DNA from: Candidatus Shapirobacteria bacterium
GTDB lineage: Bacteria; Patescibacteriota; Microgenomatia; 0-14-0-10-38-17
DNA: 33,051 bases
NCBI GenBank assembly: GCA_028697345.1
Contig: JAQVFF010000003.1
Coordinates: forward strand, 1 to 33,051
Direction: 5' to 3'
Notes under the pieces: generated by a model
The model's database searches: none
What the model saw: only the letters and a program-made list of their open reading frames with translations
Told to the model about the DNA's origin: nothing
Part shown: positions 1 to 33,051 of the stretch, in pieces
How the letters are laid out: each line of letters opens with the position of its first letter
How positions within the stretch are numbered: position 1 is the first letter of the stretch
Translations under genes and position numbers: made by a program

Positions 1-182
<182 letters not shown>

Positions 183-355: not shown

Positions 356-384
356 TTGACGGCCCTCGAAATTTAGGATATTAT
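356..384 (+). promoter_or_regulatory. Sigma70-type promoter for the cohesin-like gene
   Basis: TTGACG (356-361), 17-bp spacer, TATTAT (379-384); ATG at 393. Confidence 0.65.
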
Positions 385-392
385 GAATTTTA

Positions 393-1046
393 ATGAGGAG
401 AAAATATCGGTCTTTTAGTTGTCAATATAATGTAGTGGCCTTAATATTTTGTATTTTTTTGTTTTTGGCCGCTCCATTTCCCCTTTTAGCCCAAACGGCC
501 ACTCCACATTTATCACTAAGCCCAACCGTCAAAGAGGTTGCTACCGGAGTAAACTTTAATGTTGTTGTTTCCGTTGATACTGGTGGTCAATTGTCGTCTG
601 GGGTTGATGCTATTGTTCAATATAATTCTTCTTTGCTGGAAGTAGTTAGTGTTAGCGAAGGAACGTTTTTTCCAACCATTACTACCCTAACCACTACTTT
701 GGGTAAAGTAGAAATCTACGGTGTAGCCAATACCGGTAGCCCAAAATCAGGAACTGGTACATTAGCAACAATTACTTTTAGAGGTAAGGCTGCCGGAACG
801 GCCACGGTTAATTTTGTTTGCCAACAGGGCAGTACCACTGACTCTAATATTAACTCAACCAGTGATAGTGATATTATTATCTGCGCCAACAACGTTAATG
901 CCTCTTATGTTGTTACTGGTACAACAGTAACTCCTACTATTGCCACCGGTCAAGATCTGCCCCAAACTGGTTTCTTAGAACCAACCGCTCTTATAATTGG
1001 CGGAGGAATTCTTTTAATGATTCTGGGATTAATTTTTGTTTTCTAA
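393..1046 (+). CDS. Secreted cohesin-domain-like protein with LPQTG motif and C-terminal TM helix
   Basis: N-terminal signal/TM; cohesin-like LSLSPTVKEVATGVNFNVVVSVDTGGQLSSGVDAIVQYNSSLLEVVSV...GTLATITFRGKAAGTATV; C-terminal LPQTGFLEPTALIIGGGILLMILGLIFVF. Confidence 0.75.
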   Translation: MRRKYRSFSCQYNVVALIFCIFLFLAAPFPLLAQTATPHLSLSPTVKEVATGVNFNVVVSVDTGGQLSSGVDAIVQYNSSLLEVVSVSEGTFFPTITTLTTTLGKVEIYGVANTGSPKSGTGTLATITFRGKAAGTATVNFVCQQGSTTDSNINSTSDSDIIICANNVNASYVVTGTTVTPTIATGQDLPQTGFLEPTALIIGGGILLMILGLIFVF

Positions 1047-1075
1047 TCTAAATCAAAAAGGGCAAATTTCTGACA

Positions 1076-1726
1076 ATGAAGAATAAAAAAAAGATTGTTA
1101 TTATTGTTGCTTTACTTTTAGCAATTGGCCTCATTGCTGGTCTGGTTTTAGGTTTGGATAAAGTTAAAAACTTTTTTGGGCAAGCGACTGGTCAGCAACA
1201 ACCGCAAGGAATTCGAGTCACTAGCATAACTGCTAATTCGGCTACTATTGTTTGGCAAACAACTACTCCGGTCATTGGTCAAATCGAGTATGGTACTACT
1301 CCAGGTAGTTTTTTGCTTCGATCTGCCGAAACTAATCAGACTGCTAATCACAACTTAACCCTGTCTCCCTTGTTGCCAGAAACAATTTATTATTTCAGAG
1401 TTCGGATTGGAGACCAAATTTATGATGACGGTGGCGCTCCTTACTCTTTTACCACCAAGGCAACTACCGAAGCTGTTCCTGCTAATCAAACATCATCCCC
1501 CCAGACTCAAAACGCTCAACTAGAATCTGACTATGATAACCAAACTGAACTAGAAGCAACCAAAGATGGCACTATTGCTCCTTCTCCTACAGCACCAGAA
1601 CAAAACAAATACATTTTGGGTGATTTTGTTGAAAAATTCGGCACTTCAGATCCTGAATTTGACATCAACAATGATGGGGTCGTTAATAGTCAAGACTGGT
1701 CCTTATACCAACAGCAAAATCCTTAA
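1076..1726 (+). CDS. Membrane-anchored fibronectin type III-like domain protein with C-terminal dockerin-like Ca-binding loop
   Basis: N-terminal TM (KKIVIIVALLLAIGLIAGLVLGL); FN3-like IRVTSITANSATIVWQTTTPVIGQIEYG...PETIYYFRVRI; C-terminal DINNDGVVNSQDW matches DxNxDGxVNxxD. Confidence 0.75.
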   Translation: MKNKKKIVIIVALLLAIGLIAGLVLGLDKVKNFFGQATGQQQPQGIRVTSITANSATIVWQTTTPVIGQIEYGTTPGSFLLRSAETNQTANHNLTLSPLLPETIYYFRVRIGDQIYDDGGAPYSFTTKATTEAVPANQTSSPQTQNAQLESDYDNQTELEATKDGTIAPSPTAPEQNKYILGDFVEKFGTSDPEFDINNDGVVNSQDWSLYQQQNP

Positions 1727-11104: not shown

Positions 11105-11631
11105 TATTTTTCACCTCCTTGTTGATTTTGTAACACTCTAATAGTTGAGGTAAAATTTTGTATTGGTGCACCAAGGGTAAATAGTAGATGACTTAAATTG
11201 GCAGCTAATCCTCCAACCAACATTGCCCTAAGATTATCTATCGAAGGCAAAGTGGCTAATCGAAGCATCTCTGAACCGTCAAAATATTGCTTCGTCTTAG
11301 TAAAAAAACCCAGCTTTAGGTCCGGATCAAGGCTATTTTCCTTCAAAAAATCGCAAAGGGTTGACAGGGGAGCCGTTTCGTCGGTCAAACTAAACAAACA
11401 GACCGTTGGTCCAGTTATTGGCTGATCAAGGTCAACATTATCTTCAATCGCCCGACCAAAGAGACTATTACGTATTACTTTCAATTGTCCCCCCACCTGA
11501 CCAACTCTCTGACGTAATTGATTAAAGAAATTAGCATCCCAACCCTGATAACCAACCAAAAAAAACCCTTTAGAATCTTTAATCTTGGCTTTTAAGTCGT
11601 CGATTTCGTAAACTTTTGTTTGTTTGACCAT
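11104..11631 (-). CDS. rplJ: 50S ribosomal protein L10
   Basis: L10-like KGFFLVGYQGWDANFFNQLRQRVGQVGGQLKVIRNSLFGRAIED; directly upstream of rplL. Confidence 0.93.
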   Translation of the reverse strand: MVKQTKVYEIDDLKAKIKDSKGFFLVGYQGWDANFFNQLRQRVGQVGGQLKVIRNSLFGRAIEDNVDLDQPITGPTVCLFSLTDETAPLSTLCDFLKENSLDPDLKLGFFTKTKQYFDGSEMLRLATLPSIDNLRAMLVGGLAANLSHLLFTLGAPIQNFTSTIRVLQNQQGGEK

Positions 11632-11755
11632 AAAAAAACACCTCTTGCCGAGGTGTTACCAATTATGAACAACCCTTATTTTGGTTACCTCGGCAGGAAA
11701 TTAAGCTTTAAGAAAACAATAAGCACCTGCTGTCTTTGGCGAAAACAGACTTATT
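11632..11755 (-). promoter_or_regulatory. L10 ribosomal leader with attenuator upstream of rplJ-rplL
   Basis: AAAGACAGCAGGTGC...CCTGCCGAGGT resembles the L10 leader; antiterminator TGCCGAGGT/ACCTCGGCA competes with terminator ACACCTC-GGCAA-GAGGTGT-T7. Confidence 0.8.
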
Positions 11756-11911
11756 TTTACCATAAGGTTCAACTAAAGTCAATGATTAATAAGAAAAAGC
11801 AAATCTGTCAACTTCTAACAATTTAGTTTTTTGATTATTTTACTTCTCTGTTAATTAACACCTCAAAAGACATCTTTTAAGGCTATTTATATTATAGTTA
11901 TTTTTTTCCTC

Positions 11912-11941
11912 TTGACAAAATAATTAATATTTTGATATATT
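11912..11941 (+). promoter_or_regulatory. Promoter of HTH gene
   Basis: TTGACA (11912-11917), 18 bp, TATATT (11936-11941). Confidence 0.6.
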
Positions 11942-11976
11942 TATTACTAGAAAACCTAATTAAGAAACCTATAATA

Positions 11977-12204
11977 ATGAATACTCCTAAAGTATCGGCT
12001 AGTAAAAAACTATCTCTTAATAGCCTTCCTGATTTATTAACTGTTCGTGAGGTTGCTGAATTATTGCGCGTATCTCCACTGACAATTAAGCGTTGGGGCA
12101 AACGAGGTAAATTACCGGCAATACGAATCAATTCCCGAGGCGATCGCCGCTACCGTAAAGAACAGGTTCTTTGGCTTTTGGGTATCCAGGAAAAAAAAGA
12201 CTAG
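11977..12204 (+). CDS. Excisionase/MerR-like helix-turn-helix DNA-binding protein
   Basis: LLTVREVAELLRVSPLTIKRWGKRGKLPAIRINSRGDRRYRKEQVLWLL (HTH_17). ATG 11977 preferred because the track start (11932) overlaps the -10 box. Confidence 0.85.
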   Translation: MNTPKVSASKKLSLNSLPDLLTVREVAELLRVSPLTIKRWGKRGKLPAIRINSRGDRRYRKEQVLWLLGIQEKKD

Positions 12205-27727: not shown

Positions 27728-28453
27728 ATGAAACACGGCCGAGATTTTCTTAATATCCTTTTTATTGCTTTGGCTTTGACCCTAACGTCGGTGATAATTT
27801 TTTTTTGGACTCAATCCCCCCTGGCCGAATATAATTTCCAGTTCGTTGCGATCTTGGCTATTTTATTTCTAATTAGCCGAAAAATTGCCGACGATCAGCT
27901 ATTGGCTCACCCTGTTAATCTAATCATTTTTACCGCCGTTACTTTATTGTTAATTTCTGAAACCGGAGGTTTGGAGTCACCAATCTTTTTCATTGTTTAT
28001 TTTCTCCTCTTTGGCACCGCCCTTCTCAGTTCAGCCCCAATTGTTTTAACCTTAACCCTGCTTATTATGATTTTTTTCTCTCCTTCTTTAACCAGTATCA
28101 ATGCCGCTATTCAATTGGCTTCTCTTTTGTTAATCACTCCCTTGGCAGTTTTTTTCGGCCAACAATATCTCCAACTACTCAACCAACAAGGAGAAATCGT
28201 TTTTCTCAAAAAAGCCAATGAAATTAGTGAGAAAAGTCTGGCGAAACAAGAAACCAATACTTTAATCTGGCTCAGTCTTGACCTTAAAAACACCCTAATT
28301 GAAATTAGTGAAGACTTAAGCCGTTTACTCGCCGACCCTGTTCATTTTACTCCCAACCAAACCAAAAACTTAAAAAAAATCCACCAAAGGGTTCATGGTT
28401 TGCTAGAAGAGAGTCAAGTTGTTAAAAAATTAATCGATGAAGAAACCGACTAA
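27728..28453 (+). CDS. Multi-TM membrane protein with C-terminal HisKA-like helical hairpin, no kinase domain
   Basis: About 6 hydrophobic segments then NTLIWLSLDLKNTLIEISEDLSRLL...LTPNQ-like QTKNLKKIHQRVHGLLEESQVVKKLID. Confidence 0.65.
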   Translation: MKHGRDFLNILFIALALTLTSVIIFFWTQSPLAEYNFQFVAILAILFLISRKIADDQLLAHPVNLIIFTAVTLLLISETGGLESPIFFIVYFLLFGTALLSSAPIVLTLTLLIMIFFSPSLTSINAAIQLASLLLITPLAVFFGQQYLQLLNQQGEIVFLKKANEISEKSLAKQETNTLIWLSLDLKNTLIEISEDLSRLLADPVHFTPNQTKNLKKIHQRVHGLLEESQVVKKLIDEETD

Positions 28454-29627
28454 CAAAACAAATAGCCAGCCAAAACGCTTAAAAAGTATTTTTCTTAACA
28501 AATATTCACTGGCCAATAAGAAAACGGTTTTTTTGATTATAACTGGGCTAACAACTGTAATCATTATTGCCTCTTTTGCCATCGTCTTGGTTTCTAAGAA
28601 CGATCCTCAACCAGTAATTACCCCTCTCTCCAGACAACAAGCCCAAAATTCTGTTAAGCCGTCTGCCCAGGAAGCAACCTACTACATTAATATTGCTCAA
28701 AAATTTCTAACTCAAGCCGAAGAATTATCAAAAAATCCCCACCAAACAACACAAGACAAAGAGGCAATTTTAATCGCCGTCCAAAATTCTCTGACAACTA
28801 TTAATGAAGGTATCGTCCACTACCCGAAAGATGACCGTCTCTACGCCCAAAGAGCAAAAATTTATCAGGGTATCGCTTCCTTTTCTTCTGGGGCACTCGA
28901 GGCGGCCGTTGCCGATCTTGATCAAGCCCGAAAACTATCCCCTCAAAATCCTATTTATCCTAAGAGCCAAAGCCAAATCCTAGCTCAAATTGGTCAATAT
29001 CAAGATGCCAGTTTTTATGCTAAGTTGGCTTATGAAATTGAACCTCATAATCTACAAAATCTGATCGATTTGAGTCAAATTCAAATCAAGGCTGGTCAAG
29101 TCGATGGAGCCATCAAATCTTACCAAACACTGCTTTCTCTTCTCCCTCAAGATAGTCAAGAAATCATAACAATCAAAAAAGAAATTGCGGAACTAGAAAA
29201 ACTCTTATCTCAAATTAAAGATAGTCAAGGTTCAAGCCTTTATCTAACTAATGAACCAACTCCAAACCCAAGAAACATTCCAGCCGACATTAATTTTCTC
29301 CCTCAAGAGCAAGCCGCTTTACCGACAAATTTAATTATCGCCACTTCTCAAGAAAAAAACAACAATCAACAGTCACAAGGGGTTGATCTTAATGCCTTTG
29401 CCGGGGAAGCAACCATTCTCTCCGGACAGAATCAAACAATAATTTACAATCATAATTTAACCGAAACAAAAAAAATTAACCTTGCTCCTCAAGATAACAC
29501 TGATAATCAGGTTCTTTATGTTAAAGACAGAGTTGCTAATCCCAGCAACGGCGCTCCTTACTTTGTCGTTGCCCTTTCCAAACCTCTTAACCAAAACCTC
29601 GTTTTTAAATGGTGGATAATAGAGTAA
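28437..29627 (+). CDS. Membrane-anchored TPR-repeat protein
   Basis: N-terminal TM (TVFLIITGLTTVIIIASFAIVLV), TPR-like AAVADLDQARKLSPQNPIYPKSQSQILAQIGQYQDASFYAKLAYEIEP. Confidence 0.8.
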   Translation: MKKPTNKTNSQPKRLKSIFLNKYSLANKKTVFLIITGLTTVIIIASFAIVLVSKNDPQPVITPLSRQQAQNSVKPSAQEATYYINIAQKFLTQAEELSKNPHQTTQDKEAILIAVQNSLTTINEGIVHYPKDDRLYAQRAKIYQGIASFSSGALEAAVADLDQARKLSPQNPIYPKSQSQILAQIGQYQDASFYAKLAYEIEPHNLQNLIDLSQIQIKAGQVDGAIKSYQTLLSLLPQDSQEIITIKKEIAELEKLLSQIKDSQGSSLYLTNEPTPNPRNIPADINFLPQEQAALPTNLIIATSQEKNNNQQSQGVDLNAFAGEATILSGQNQTIIYNHNLTETKKINLAPQDNTDNQVLYVKDRVANPSNGAPYFVVALSKPLNQNLVFKWWIIE

Positions 29628-30580
29628 AATTCTCTTCTCGCTTCTGCTACTATATAGTCATGATGCTTATAATCTTTTTGGTTTTATCCGGTCTTTTTTT
29701 TTCTACTCCCAAAAACTGCCTGGCTCAATCTTTTTCTCTTTCCATCACCCCACCCATTCTCGAGGCCATGATCCAACCAGGCAAAAAAATTATTTATACC
29801 TTCGATCTACAAAATCATTCTCCTGTTCCAATTGACTTGACTGCCAGGATGATTCCCTTTGAGGCTAAAGATAACCAAGGCCATATTAGTCTTCTGAACG
29901 AAAACCCTCCCAATTTTTTTAATCTCCTTAATGCCGACATGGACTTTAATCAAGTTTTCTCTCTAGACCCCAAGCAAAAGCTCCAACTGGTGGTTAGAAT
30001 TGCCATTCCTAACAACCAGCCAGAGGGCGACTACTATCAAACCCTGCTTGTTGAACAATTCAACCCCAAGCTCCCATCGGGAAATATAAACCAATCGCTT
30101 GGAGCTGTAGGTTCCAATATTCTGCTAACCATCTCTCAATCTGGTCAACCGCAAAGAAGCCTCGACATTTCTTCGTTTTCTATTCAAAAAGCCTATTTTA
30201 ATAGGATCGTCGACTCTTTTGATATTGTCAGTTTTGAAATTCTACTTGAAAATACCGGCCAGGCTTTTGTAAAACCGGAAGGAAGCATTTTTCTCCAATC
30301 TAAAGGAGATAAAGATGATATTCACGAAATTAAAATTCGACCAGACAATATTCTCCCTGGCACTGTTCGACAAATGAAATGTTTAGAAAAACCCTGTTTT
30401 TTCAAACCACCTCAATTAATCGGCTCCTACCAGGCCCGCTTTGAATTTATTCTTGATGGTAAAAAATACCAATCTGGTATCGCCTTTTGGGTGTTCCCAA
30501 TCAAAATTACTCTTGGAATAACGATTTTTTTAATCACTCTGTTAATTTTTCTTTGGCACCTAAAACAAAAGCGCTATTAA
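29609..30580 (+). CDS. Secreted DUF916-like beta-sandwich protein with C-terminal TM anchor
   Basis: Signal peptide; FSLSITPPILEAMIQPGKKIIYTFDLQNHSPVPIDLTARMIPF; C-terminal WVFPIKITLGITIFLITLLIFLWHLKQKRY. Confidence 0.65.
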   Translation: MVDNRVKFSSRFCYYIVMMLIIFLVLSGLFFSTPKNCLAQSFSLSITPPILEAMIQPGKKIIYTFDLQNHSPVPIDLTARMIPFEAKDNQGHISLLNENPPNFFNLLNADMDFNQVFSLDPKQKLQLVVRIAIPNNQPEGDYYQTLLVEQFNPKLPSGNINQSLGAVGSNILLTISQSGQPQRSLDISSFSIQKAYFNRIVDSFDIVSFEILLENTGQAFVKPEGSIFLQSKGDKDDIHEIKIRPDNILPGTVRQMKCLEKPCFFKPPQLIGSYQARFEFILDGKKYQSGIAFWVFPIKITLGITIFLITLLIFLWHLKQKRY

Positions 30581-30659
30581 TCTAGACAATGCTTGCTATA
30601 AAAACAAAAAAAATTTTACTTAAATTTTTAAATATCCTATACTGTTCACACATTAATAA

Positions 30660-30688
30660 TTGACAACTAATTAAAAATTTGTTTAAAT
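30660..30688 (+). promoter_or_regulatory. Candidate promoter of the 30723 surface protein gene
   Basis: TTGACA (30660-30665), 17 bp, TTAAAT (30683-30688). Confidence 0.5.
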
Positions 30689-30722
30689 TTAATCAAAGAG
30701 GGTTGTTTTATCATTATTTGAC

Positions 30723-31970
30723 ATGAATAAAGATTGTTTCTTCCATAAGGGCTTGTTTTTATTAACTATTTCTTTGCTAACTCTTACCTTTTTTTTCGTT
30801 TATCCTGGCCTAGCAGGCTCTGCCAGCAACTTGAAAAATGCCCGAGTTGTCTTGTCCGATTCCCGACCTCTTTTCGAATATACTAAACACACCAACTATT
30901 TCCAAACCACTACTGCTATTCCAGCCTCTGGAAAAATTATTATTGACCTTGACCCTGAAAATAGTACTCCTTTCGATCTTGGAGTCGGCCACGGTTATGC
31001 CGACATGAGTCTAAGATATAGCGCCAACGCTGATATGTCGAGTGCCACCACCTGTACTTTAGCCGCCGCTCCAGATGTTGATGTAGTTGGGGTTAGCGTT
31101 AACAATAGCGATGAAATTATTACTATTACTTTGGCTCCATCGGGAACTTGTGCCGGTATTGCTGGTGATCAATATGTTGAAATTGTCATTGGTGATGGTG
31201 CCTCCGGTGGTTTAGATGACATTATAAATCCGGCCAAAGTAGCCGCCACCGGTACTGCTGATACCTATTTAATCGAGTATGAAACTCAAAACGCCGCTTC
31301 TGAAACCTTAGATACTGCTTCTGTTAAAGCGGCTATTATTGACGCCGTTACTATCACTGCTGAAGTTAAAGCTACTCTTTCTTGCCAGGTGGCCGGAGTT
31401 GGGGTTGGAACCAGTCTGGTTGGGGTTGGAGCCACTTTTAACGACTATGGTGTTGCCGGATTTACAACTAATGCCGACGCTGTCTCTTTTGGAGTTTTAG
31501 AAGCCAACTCAGCCTCCCAGTCTGCTCAACAACTTAAGGTCAACACTAATGGCGCCAACGGTTTTTATTTTGCCGTCAAACAATATGGAGATTTGACCTC
31601 CGACGGCGGTGATACTATTGATACTTTTGTTGATGGTGTCACCCAAGACAATTCTTCGCCAGTTATCTGGGCCCCCCCCTCAGCCTCAGTCGGTTCTCCG
31701 GATACTTATGGACACCTTGGTTATGGCACCACTGACATCACTCTCGATGATCTTAATGGTTCTGGCGATGAGGACCGTTTTTTTGAAACTAAATTCGCAG
31801 GATTATCAACCACTTATGAGGCTGTTTTAAGTAACGATGGTCCAAGCGACGGTATTAGCGCCGACACCAATGGTCAAACTTACGTTGTTTACCAAATTGA
31901 GATTTCAGGATTACAACAAGCCGGTATTTACTCCAACACTGTTTCTTATTTGTGCACTGGACGTTATTAG
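30723..31970 (+). CDS. Secreted beta-rich surface protein (WxL-like in layout, no WxL motif)
   Basis: Signal peptide; VSFGVLEANSASQSAQQLKVNTNGANGFYFAVKQYGDL; C-terminal QQAGIYSNTVSYLCTGRY; Ala/Gly/Thr/Asp-rich. Confidence 0.6.
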   Translation: MNKDCFFHKGLFLLTISLLTLTFFFVYPGLAGSASNLKNARVVLSDSRPLFEYTKHTNYFQTTTAIPASGKIIIDLDPENSTPFDLGVGHGYADMSLRYSANADMSSATTCTLAAAPDVDVVGVSVNNSDEIITITLAPSGTCAGIAGDQYVEIVIGDGASGGLDDIINPAKVAATGTADTYLIEYETQNAASETLDTASVKAAIIDAVTITAEVKATLSCQVAGVGVGTSLVGVGATFNDYGVAGFTTNADAVSFGVLEANSASQSAQQLKVNTNGANGFYFAVKQYGDLTSDGGDTIDTFVDGVTQDNSSPVIWAPPSASVGSPDTYGHLGYGTTDITLDDLNGSGDEDRFFETKFAGLSTTYEAVLSNDGPSDGISADTNGQTYVVYQIEISGLQQAGIYSNTVSYLCTGRY

Positions 31971-31996
31971 GCTAATATATTAAATTAATTCTATAA

Positions 31997-33051
31997 ATGA
32001 TCAAAAAGTCTGCCTGGTTAATATTTATTCTTATCTTACTATTGGCGACAGTCACCAGTTCTGTCTTAGGCCAAGAAAACCCAGCCGGCCAAGATCCCAA
32101 CAACCAGCAAGAAGAAGCCGTCATTCAAATTCAGGAACAGGGAATCATTACTCCGTCTCCCCAGCCTCAACCCACCCCTACACCGGAAACTTTAACCGAT
32201 AGCAACTTAATCACTATCAGCCCACCAATTCGAGAACTAGAACTGCCTCGGGGCAGCGCTAATTCTTATCAAATGTCCCTAACCAATCGAGGGCAAAAAA
32301 TGATTACCTTGGTTCTGCGAGCATCGCCATTCGTTGCCTCTGGAGACACCGGTGGCGTTGATGTCGCTGACGATCCTCTACCCGAAACCCAAAACTGGAT
32401 TATTATTAGTCCTAGTGTTGTTGCCTTAGAACCCGGAGAACAAACTGACATCACCTACACCATTATCGTTCCTCAAAACGCTGAGCCAGGTGGCTTTTAT
32501 TTTGCTATTACCGCACTTTTATCAAGCGACACCAGTGTTGGCGGACAACCAGACCAAATTACTACCGGATCAGCAATTAATCTTAATGTGGCTTCTTTAA
32601 ATTTGGTCACCATTGAAGGCCCGGTTAACTACGGTGCTCAAATCGCTGAATTTTCAACTCCTAAGGTTTTATTTGAATACGGTCCGGTACCATTTACTAC
32701 CCGAATTTTAAATTTAAGCAATGTCCACATTAAACCTATTTTGGAAATAGAAGTTAACAATACTTGGGGGCTGGAAAGCGCTAGTTTAATTCATGTCGAA
32801 AGACAAAACATTCTTCCTCAAGCTCAAAGACGCTACGAATCTGAATTTAGTGGCAAGTGGCACTTTGGTCGCTATTCAGCTACCCTAAGCGGCCTTTATG
32901 GCGACGGCCAAGTTCTTTCTTATACTATCTTTTTTTGGATCATGCCCTGGAAAATAATTTTGGCCATTTTACTTGCTTTGGTTATTATCATCCTGCTTAT
33001 CTTTTCCATCAAGCGCCAACTTGATGAAAAGAAAATATTGGAAGAAGAATT
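31997..33051 (+). CDS. Second DUF916-like secreted protein with C-terminal TM (open at window end)
   Basis: ATG 31997: MIKKSAWLIFILILLLATVTSSVLGQENPAGQ...NLITISPPIRELELPRGSANSYQMSLTNRGQKMITLVLRASPF...WIMPWKIILAILLALVIIILLIFSIKRQLDEKK. Missing from the ORF track because it is open-ended. Confidence 0.7.
   Translation, partial: MIKKSAWLIFILILLLATVTSSVLGQENPAGQDPNNQQEEAVIQIQEQGIITPSPQPQPTPTPETLTDSNLITISPPIRELELPRGSANSYQMSLTNRGQKMITLVLRASPFVASGDTGGVDVADDPLPETQNWIIISPSVVALEPGEQTDITYTIIVPQNAEPGGFYFAITALLSSDTSVGGQPDQITTGSAINLNVASLNLVTIEGPVNYGAQIAEFSTPKVLFEYGPVPFTTRILNLSNVHIKPILEIEVNNTWGLESASLIHVERQNILPQAQRRYESEFSGKWHFGRYSATLSGLYGDGQVLSYTIFFWIMPWKIILAILLALVIIILLIFSIKRQLDEKKILEEE

Follow-up and report, generated by a model that had tools for sequence, protein, structure and literature searches.

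Do two neighboring genes of an uncultivated bacterium, one encoding a cohesin protein and the other a membrane-anchored protein that ends in a dockerin-like loop, make up a cognate surface pair, and if so, of what kind? The question is raised by the window analyzed here (the whole stretch of 33,051 nucleotides), which comes from the genome of a Candidatus Shapirobacteria bacterium of the Microgenomates (G000; 0.63 Mb, 92% complete). Its open reading frames at 393-1046 (gene C) and 1076-1726 (gene D) lie on the same strand with 29 bp between them, just where the first-pass annotation had placed them. A working C-D pair would bear on how these uncultivated bacteria attach and build their cell surface. 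Our preferred reading, which we hold with moderate confidence, is that C and D are such a pair, in which a half-size "mini-dockerin" of D plugs into the cohesin of C in a calcium-dependent manner and so anchors C.

Table 1. Features of the C-D locus, in window coordinates.
Feature	Position	Strand	Basis
Candidate sigma-70 promoter, TTGACG-17-TATTAT	356..384	+	Consensus scan, 10/12; ~8 bp ahead of the C start codon
Gene C, 217-aa cohesin protein	393..1046	+	Open reading frame; PF00963; class-wide relatives
Signal peptide predicted in C, residues 1 to ~33	393..491	+	Charged N-terminus, hydrophobic core, ...FPLLA-Q; judged from sequence
Cohesin domain of C	525..866	+	PF00963 match; beta sandwich in ortholog, pLDDT 92-98; best Foldseek matches are solved cohesins
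LPQTG motif and C-terminal hydrophobic helix of C (sortase-type sorting signal, no basic tail)	957..1043	+	Sequence; conservation in orthologs
Gene D, 216-aa membrane-anchored FN3 protein ending in a mini-dockerin	1076..1726	+	Open reading frame; structure model
N-terminal membrane anchor helix of D	1079..1177	+	Hydrophobic stretch; helix 2-34 in model
FN3 domain of D	1199..1456	+	PF16656 and PF00041 above cut-off (residues 42-127); best Foldseek matches are FN3 domains
Mini-dockerin of D, helix - single F-hand loop - helix	1607..1723	+	Ortholog profile; pLDDT 86-97, helices 181-187 and 205-214
Calcium-binding-type loop of D, DINNDGVVNSQD	1661..1696	+	Match to dockerin F-hand consensus

A cohesin with a sortase-type tail

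The first-pass annotation had described C as a secreted, cohesin-like protein, and the cohesin part of that description is confirmed by sequence profiles and by predicted structure. Residues 45-158 match the cohesin family PF00963 well above its cut-off (E=2.2e-8; 34.8 bits vs 24.1), and a profile of C orthologs, searched against all PDB sequences, retrieves almost exclusively cellulosomal cohesins (of the 13 matches, one carries the annotation ribonuclease G/E), among them the cohesin chain of a solved complex with dockerin (1ohz_A). The fold predicted for the closest ortholog, from G002 (55-57% identical to C), a relative of 0.5 Mb and 82% completeness that belongs, as does G001, to the family of the window's genome, matches solved cohesins in Foldseek with a TM-score on the target of up to 0.8. 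This model was made from C and D of that relative read in frame through the stop codon (as Gly), purely a folding device, which recovered both folds and is silent on binding; the top match of the chain is the Clostridium perfringens cohesin-FN3 chain, which ranks first because the model held both proteins in one chain.

"Secreted" stands in part, as a signal peptide is predicted. What the earlier description missed is the LPQTG motif followed by a hydrophobic helix, on account of which C is predicted to be attached to the wall or membrane rather than simply secreted. The LPxTG-like motif is conserved among aligned C orthologs, and two sortases are encoded in the genome (G000:C38 and C16), so that C combines the motif, the hydrophobic helix, and the in-genome sortase of an LPXTG sortase substrate. 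Gram-positive LPxTG substrates share these features with C, but differ in their basic C-terminal tail: C ends in ...LIFVF, and its tail falls just under the cut-off of TIGR01167 (14.6 bits vs 15.9). The two sortases, together with a D-Ala-D-Ala carboxypeptidase encoded within the window, make peptidoglycan and sorting plausible in this organism.

Upstream of C, the candidate promoter is weak because such sites occur in the region just as often as chance predicts; if used, it would make the C message almost leaderless. Between C and a divergent mreB-like start (1-180, minus strand), positions 306-343 hold a perfect inverted repeat of 17 bp, flanked on either side by T-runs, which is terminator-like on both strands.

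A single-loop mini-dockerin at the free end of D

D had been described as a membrane-anchored, FN3-like protein with a dockerin-type end. The first two attributes are borne out by the N-terminal helix and by the two FN3 families matched above their cut-offs. In the structure model of the window's D (mean pLDDT 81.7), the terminal helix-loop-helix is predicted with confidence, and a disordered linker separates it from the FN3 domain. The third attribute depends on how the end is compared. Taken as a single protein, D matches only the second half of the PF00404 profile and remains below its cut-off of 22.9 bits (15.6 bits with the full-length protein, 19.3 with the segment alone). It has one loop instead of the two repeats of type I dockerins, and the loop is single in the closest orthologs as well; it does fit the F-hand consensus, and a helix follows it in the model. 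A profile of the D ends of 10 orthologs, on the other hand, retrieves solved cellulosomal dockerins first (3ul4, 6kg9, 6kgc, 1ohz; best E=1.1e-7), ahead of any calmodulin-like protein, and in profile-profile comparison it pairs with repeat two of the two-repeat dockerins found in relatives (probability 95.5, E=1.4e-8). The dockerin-type end is thus upheld by the ortholog profile and not by the single-protein Pfam match.

Two other readings of the loop were rejected. The consensus appears in none of 200,000 shuffles of the residues of D, and of 20 aligned orthologs 18 preserve the loop; conservation and shuffling together rule out a chance motif. Over the ~40-residue end of 10 orthologs, the loop aligns without gaps, and D19, G24, V26, N27, and D30 of the 39-residue segment are invariant. 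A truncated dockerin is ruled out by the conservation of the single loop in orthologs, and the earlier remark that only one calcium loop is recognizable is correct. In some relatives, two such loops occur with a linker between them and cysteines flanking, which suggests that the single loop is an independent unit.

In one family (f6; L075, L084, L086, L087), the gene order and C are kept while D has no calcium loop and ends in a cysteine motif, which in several members reads C-x-E/T-TDC...GCSTQDY..CLKK. A disulfide may possibly replace calcium in these proteins, and the C-D contact, if any, would therefore need no calcium there.

C and D stay together across the class

Of the 110 class genomes, 81 contain relatives of C (profile E<=1e-10); C-type cohesins occur in 32 of 116 genomes of a phylum sample, only about a quarter (E<=1e-12). 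Strong matches to D (E<=1e-28) number 33 and come from 28 class genomes. For 30 of the 33, spread over 27 of the 28 genomes, a same-strand cohesin match lies no more than 600 bp upstream of the start. With ~2 cohesins per roughly 900 genes, chance adjacency would be expected at ~1% or less per genome. Named genomes that carry both genes belong to Candidatus Shapirobacteria and other Microgenomates, and in relatives the two genes often overlap by 4 bp. A separate genome collection was scanned with a D query built from four closer sequences, the broad D alignment having no conserved stretch, and here C lies directly upstream of D in all 11 D loci. Conservation of the neighborhood across related genomes, which had been set beforehand as a test of the pair, is therefore found. 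Of the outcomes named in advance as refuting the pair, neither a missing cohesin profile match nor a lack of co-occurrence in relatives was observed. This adjacency shows a shared function for C and D; it is not proof of binding.

The usual order in most relatives comprises four genes: a dockerin protein (A), a membrane cohesin (B), the LPxTG cohesin (C), and the FN3-dockerin protein (D). Among the best 30 C loci, counted by eye from tables, the N-terminally anchored cohesin gene B lies upstream in 26, D lies downstream in 22, and the dockerin-ended gene A is found further upstream in 21, leaving eight in which C occurs without D. The A proteins are secreted and carry domains such as cohesin (often), CARDB, or PKD together with a dockerin of two repeats and a short tail that is acidic or reads QGQLY; several exceed the PF00404 cut-off, and their dockerin profile matches many solved dockerins. 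Two fused open reading frames (L022, L023), considered as natural cohesin-dockerin fusions, proved to be cohesin-FN3 proteins with no dockerin.

The pair on its own in two reduced genomes

A profile of two-repeat dockerins finds only D in G000 (92% complete) and G002 (82% complete), and finds others in G001, G017, and G021. G002 has one cohesin match and one mini-dockerin match, and these are adjacent. Neither A nor B was seen with C-D in G000, where only one further cohesin match, a partial one, exists beyond C. In both genomes, C and D are together despite a differing position relative to rplK-rplA and to a ligase-M50 block. That C and D are kept where no other dockerin is detected is the best argument for their being mutual partners, with missing contigs as the main caveat. 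The pairing put forward in the first-pass annotation is not random across relatives; that annotation overlooked the sortase tail, the four-gene operon, and the lack of any detectable two-repeat dockerin in this genome.

As a separate observation, G000 encodes a second cohesin-like membrane protein (L066 3329-4754, G000:C37), which scores 21.5 bits with PF00963 and so falls below the cut-off. The gene immediately upstream is EF-hand/dockerin-like, and its reading frame is interrupted by a frameshift, which could be an assembly error or real.

A proposed mechanism and its alternatives

If C and D are a cognate pair, C would be exported by Sec to display its one cohesin, and would probably be handled by sortase between LPQT and G and become linked to the wall. 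D would be held in the membrane by its N-terminal helix, presenting at its free end the half-size dockerin (one F-hand, ~37 aa) on an FN3 spacer and a flexible linker. Once calcium is bound, the mini-dockerin could plug into the cohesin of C on the same cell, so that C would be tethered to the membrane and a surface complex would have its base there. Among most relatives, A, with its two-repeat dockerin, and the membrane cohesin B may also be served by this base; both would have been lost in the reduced genomes. Several observations stand against a cognate pair: the loop of D alone is sub-threshold in Pfam and comes without the second repeat that defines type I dockerins, D of f6 has no calcium loop, and some genomes keep C without D. 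More tentatively, we propose that a sortase-anchored cohesin and a one-F-hand mini-dockerin are built into a class-wide four-gene operon of Microgenomates, of which C and D are the whole system in reduced genomes.

It could be that the cohesin of C instead binds the two-repeat dockerin of A, or that of other secreted proteins, and that D is an operon partner otherwise employed, its F-hand being merely a calcium-stabilized tip. A does have a textbook two-repeat dockerin and lies upstream in most of the best C loci, and D is missing directly downstream in some genomes that keep A-B-C (L080, L081, L082). We nevertheless find this rather unlikely, as C would be partnerless in G000 and G002, where an A-type dockerin was not detectable, and the second cohesin, B, could serve A.

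The lineage is thought to include cell-associated bacteria. Since C and D are both predicted to be surface-anchored, they might also pair in trans, with C on one cell and D on another (kin or host), thereby gluing cells together. We regard this as improbable: the genes are co-encoded and co-directional, with overlapping ends in relatives, which points to co-assembly on one cell, and no host factor is known, although a dockerin-domain protein is listed among the essential genes of the Saccharibacteria epibiont Southlakia (PMC10633639).

A reduced cellulosome, in which the pair would hold polysaccharide-degrading enzymes on the cell, is very improbable. In its favor, the expressed cohesins and dockerins of a Candidatus Shapirobacterales were read in this way (PMC9123182), some relatives have GH39-like genes in the vicinity of cohesin genes, and a dockerin protein of G001 contains a subtilase domain. 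Against it, searches of G000 yield D only and no dockerin-bearing enzyme (at 92% completeness, such a gene could have been missed), the lack of any detectable two-repeat dockerin argues against a cellulosome there, D bears FN3 rather than an enzyme, and C, having one cohesin where a scaffoldin has several, cannot scaffold several enzymes.

Relation to known systems

Like the cellulosomal type I and type II pairs (e.g. PDB 1ohz), C and D show the cohesin profile and fold, the F-hand loop consensus D-x-N-x-D-G-x-x-N-x-x-D, and a helix after the loop. They differ in that the dockerin of D has one F-hand rather than two, that C is a single-cohesin protein with a sortase-type tail, and that the system comes without a multi-cohesin scaffoldin or, in G000, any dockerin-bearing enzyme that could be found. 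That cohesins and dockerins also occur outside cellulosomes is known in general (Peer et al. 2009, as cited in PMC10066038). The cohesin of Archaeoglobus fulgidus (2xdh) and the cohesin-FN3 module of C. perfringens (2w1n) likewise lie outside cellulosomes; there, however, cohesin and FN3 occur in one enzyme, whereas C and D are two anchored proteins with no catalytic domain. From the same lineage are the cohesin and dockerin genes of a Candidatus Shapirobacterales, expressed in groundwater, and of a Candidatus Roizmanbacterium, for which "cellulosomes" are reported (PMC9123182 and its reference 117). The covered part of that paper presents these genes as cellulosome parts, and an operon, a one-loop dockerin, or a sortase tail is not described in it.

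In the part of the literature that was covered, no description was found of the four-gene operon, the one-loop dockerin, or the sortase tail. None was found of single-F-hand dockerins either, which is weak evidence, as most subscription papers lie outside that coverage. We regard C-D as a real, conserved, and new form of the cohesin-dockerin theme, with putative binding. Its conservation points to a stripped-down, non-cellulosome form of the cohesin-dockerin plug-and-socket. If true, a large group of uncultivated bacteria would gain a surface-assembly module that is concrete and can be tested, and the habit of taking the group's cohesins and dockerins for cellulosomes would be corrected. If the half-size dockerin does bind, it would also reveal which half of the classical module suffices, and could be used as a small affinity tag.

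Other observations in the window and in relatives

GH39-like genes adjoin cohesin or dockerin genes at three Microgenomates loci (L020, L029, L110). In the window's family, a subtilase of 1160 aa that also contains a dockerin and leucine-rich repeats is encoded beside two cohesin genes (L064 6023-9505, G001:C36). Further surface-type proteins are clustered at 28437-33051 of the window. One is a TPR protein, two have an extracellular portion and end in a membrane helix, with weak FN3/NEW3-like matches in one of them, and a secreted protein of 415 aa has no Pfam match. Pieces at 2101-2220 and 2320-2380 resemble neighboring tRNA genes and are probably degenerate copies within a tRNA cluster, while an Rfam L10 leader (RF00557) lies at 11624-11757, upstream of rplJ. 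Finally, a small, conserved MerR-like helix-turn-helix gene adjoins a cohesin gene in L019 (1810-2127), and the same type of gene occurs in the wider neighborhood of the pair in L101 (714-956) and in the window (11932-12204).
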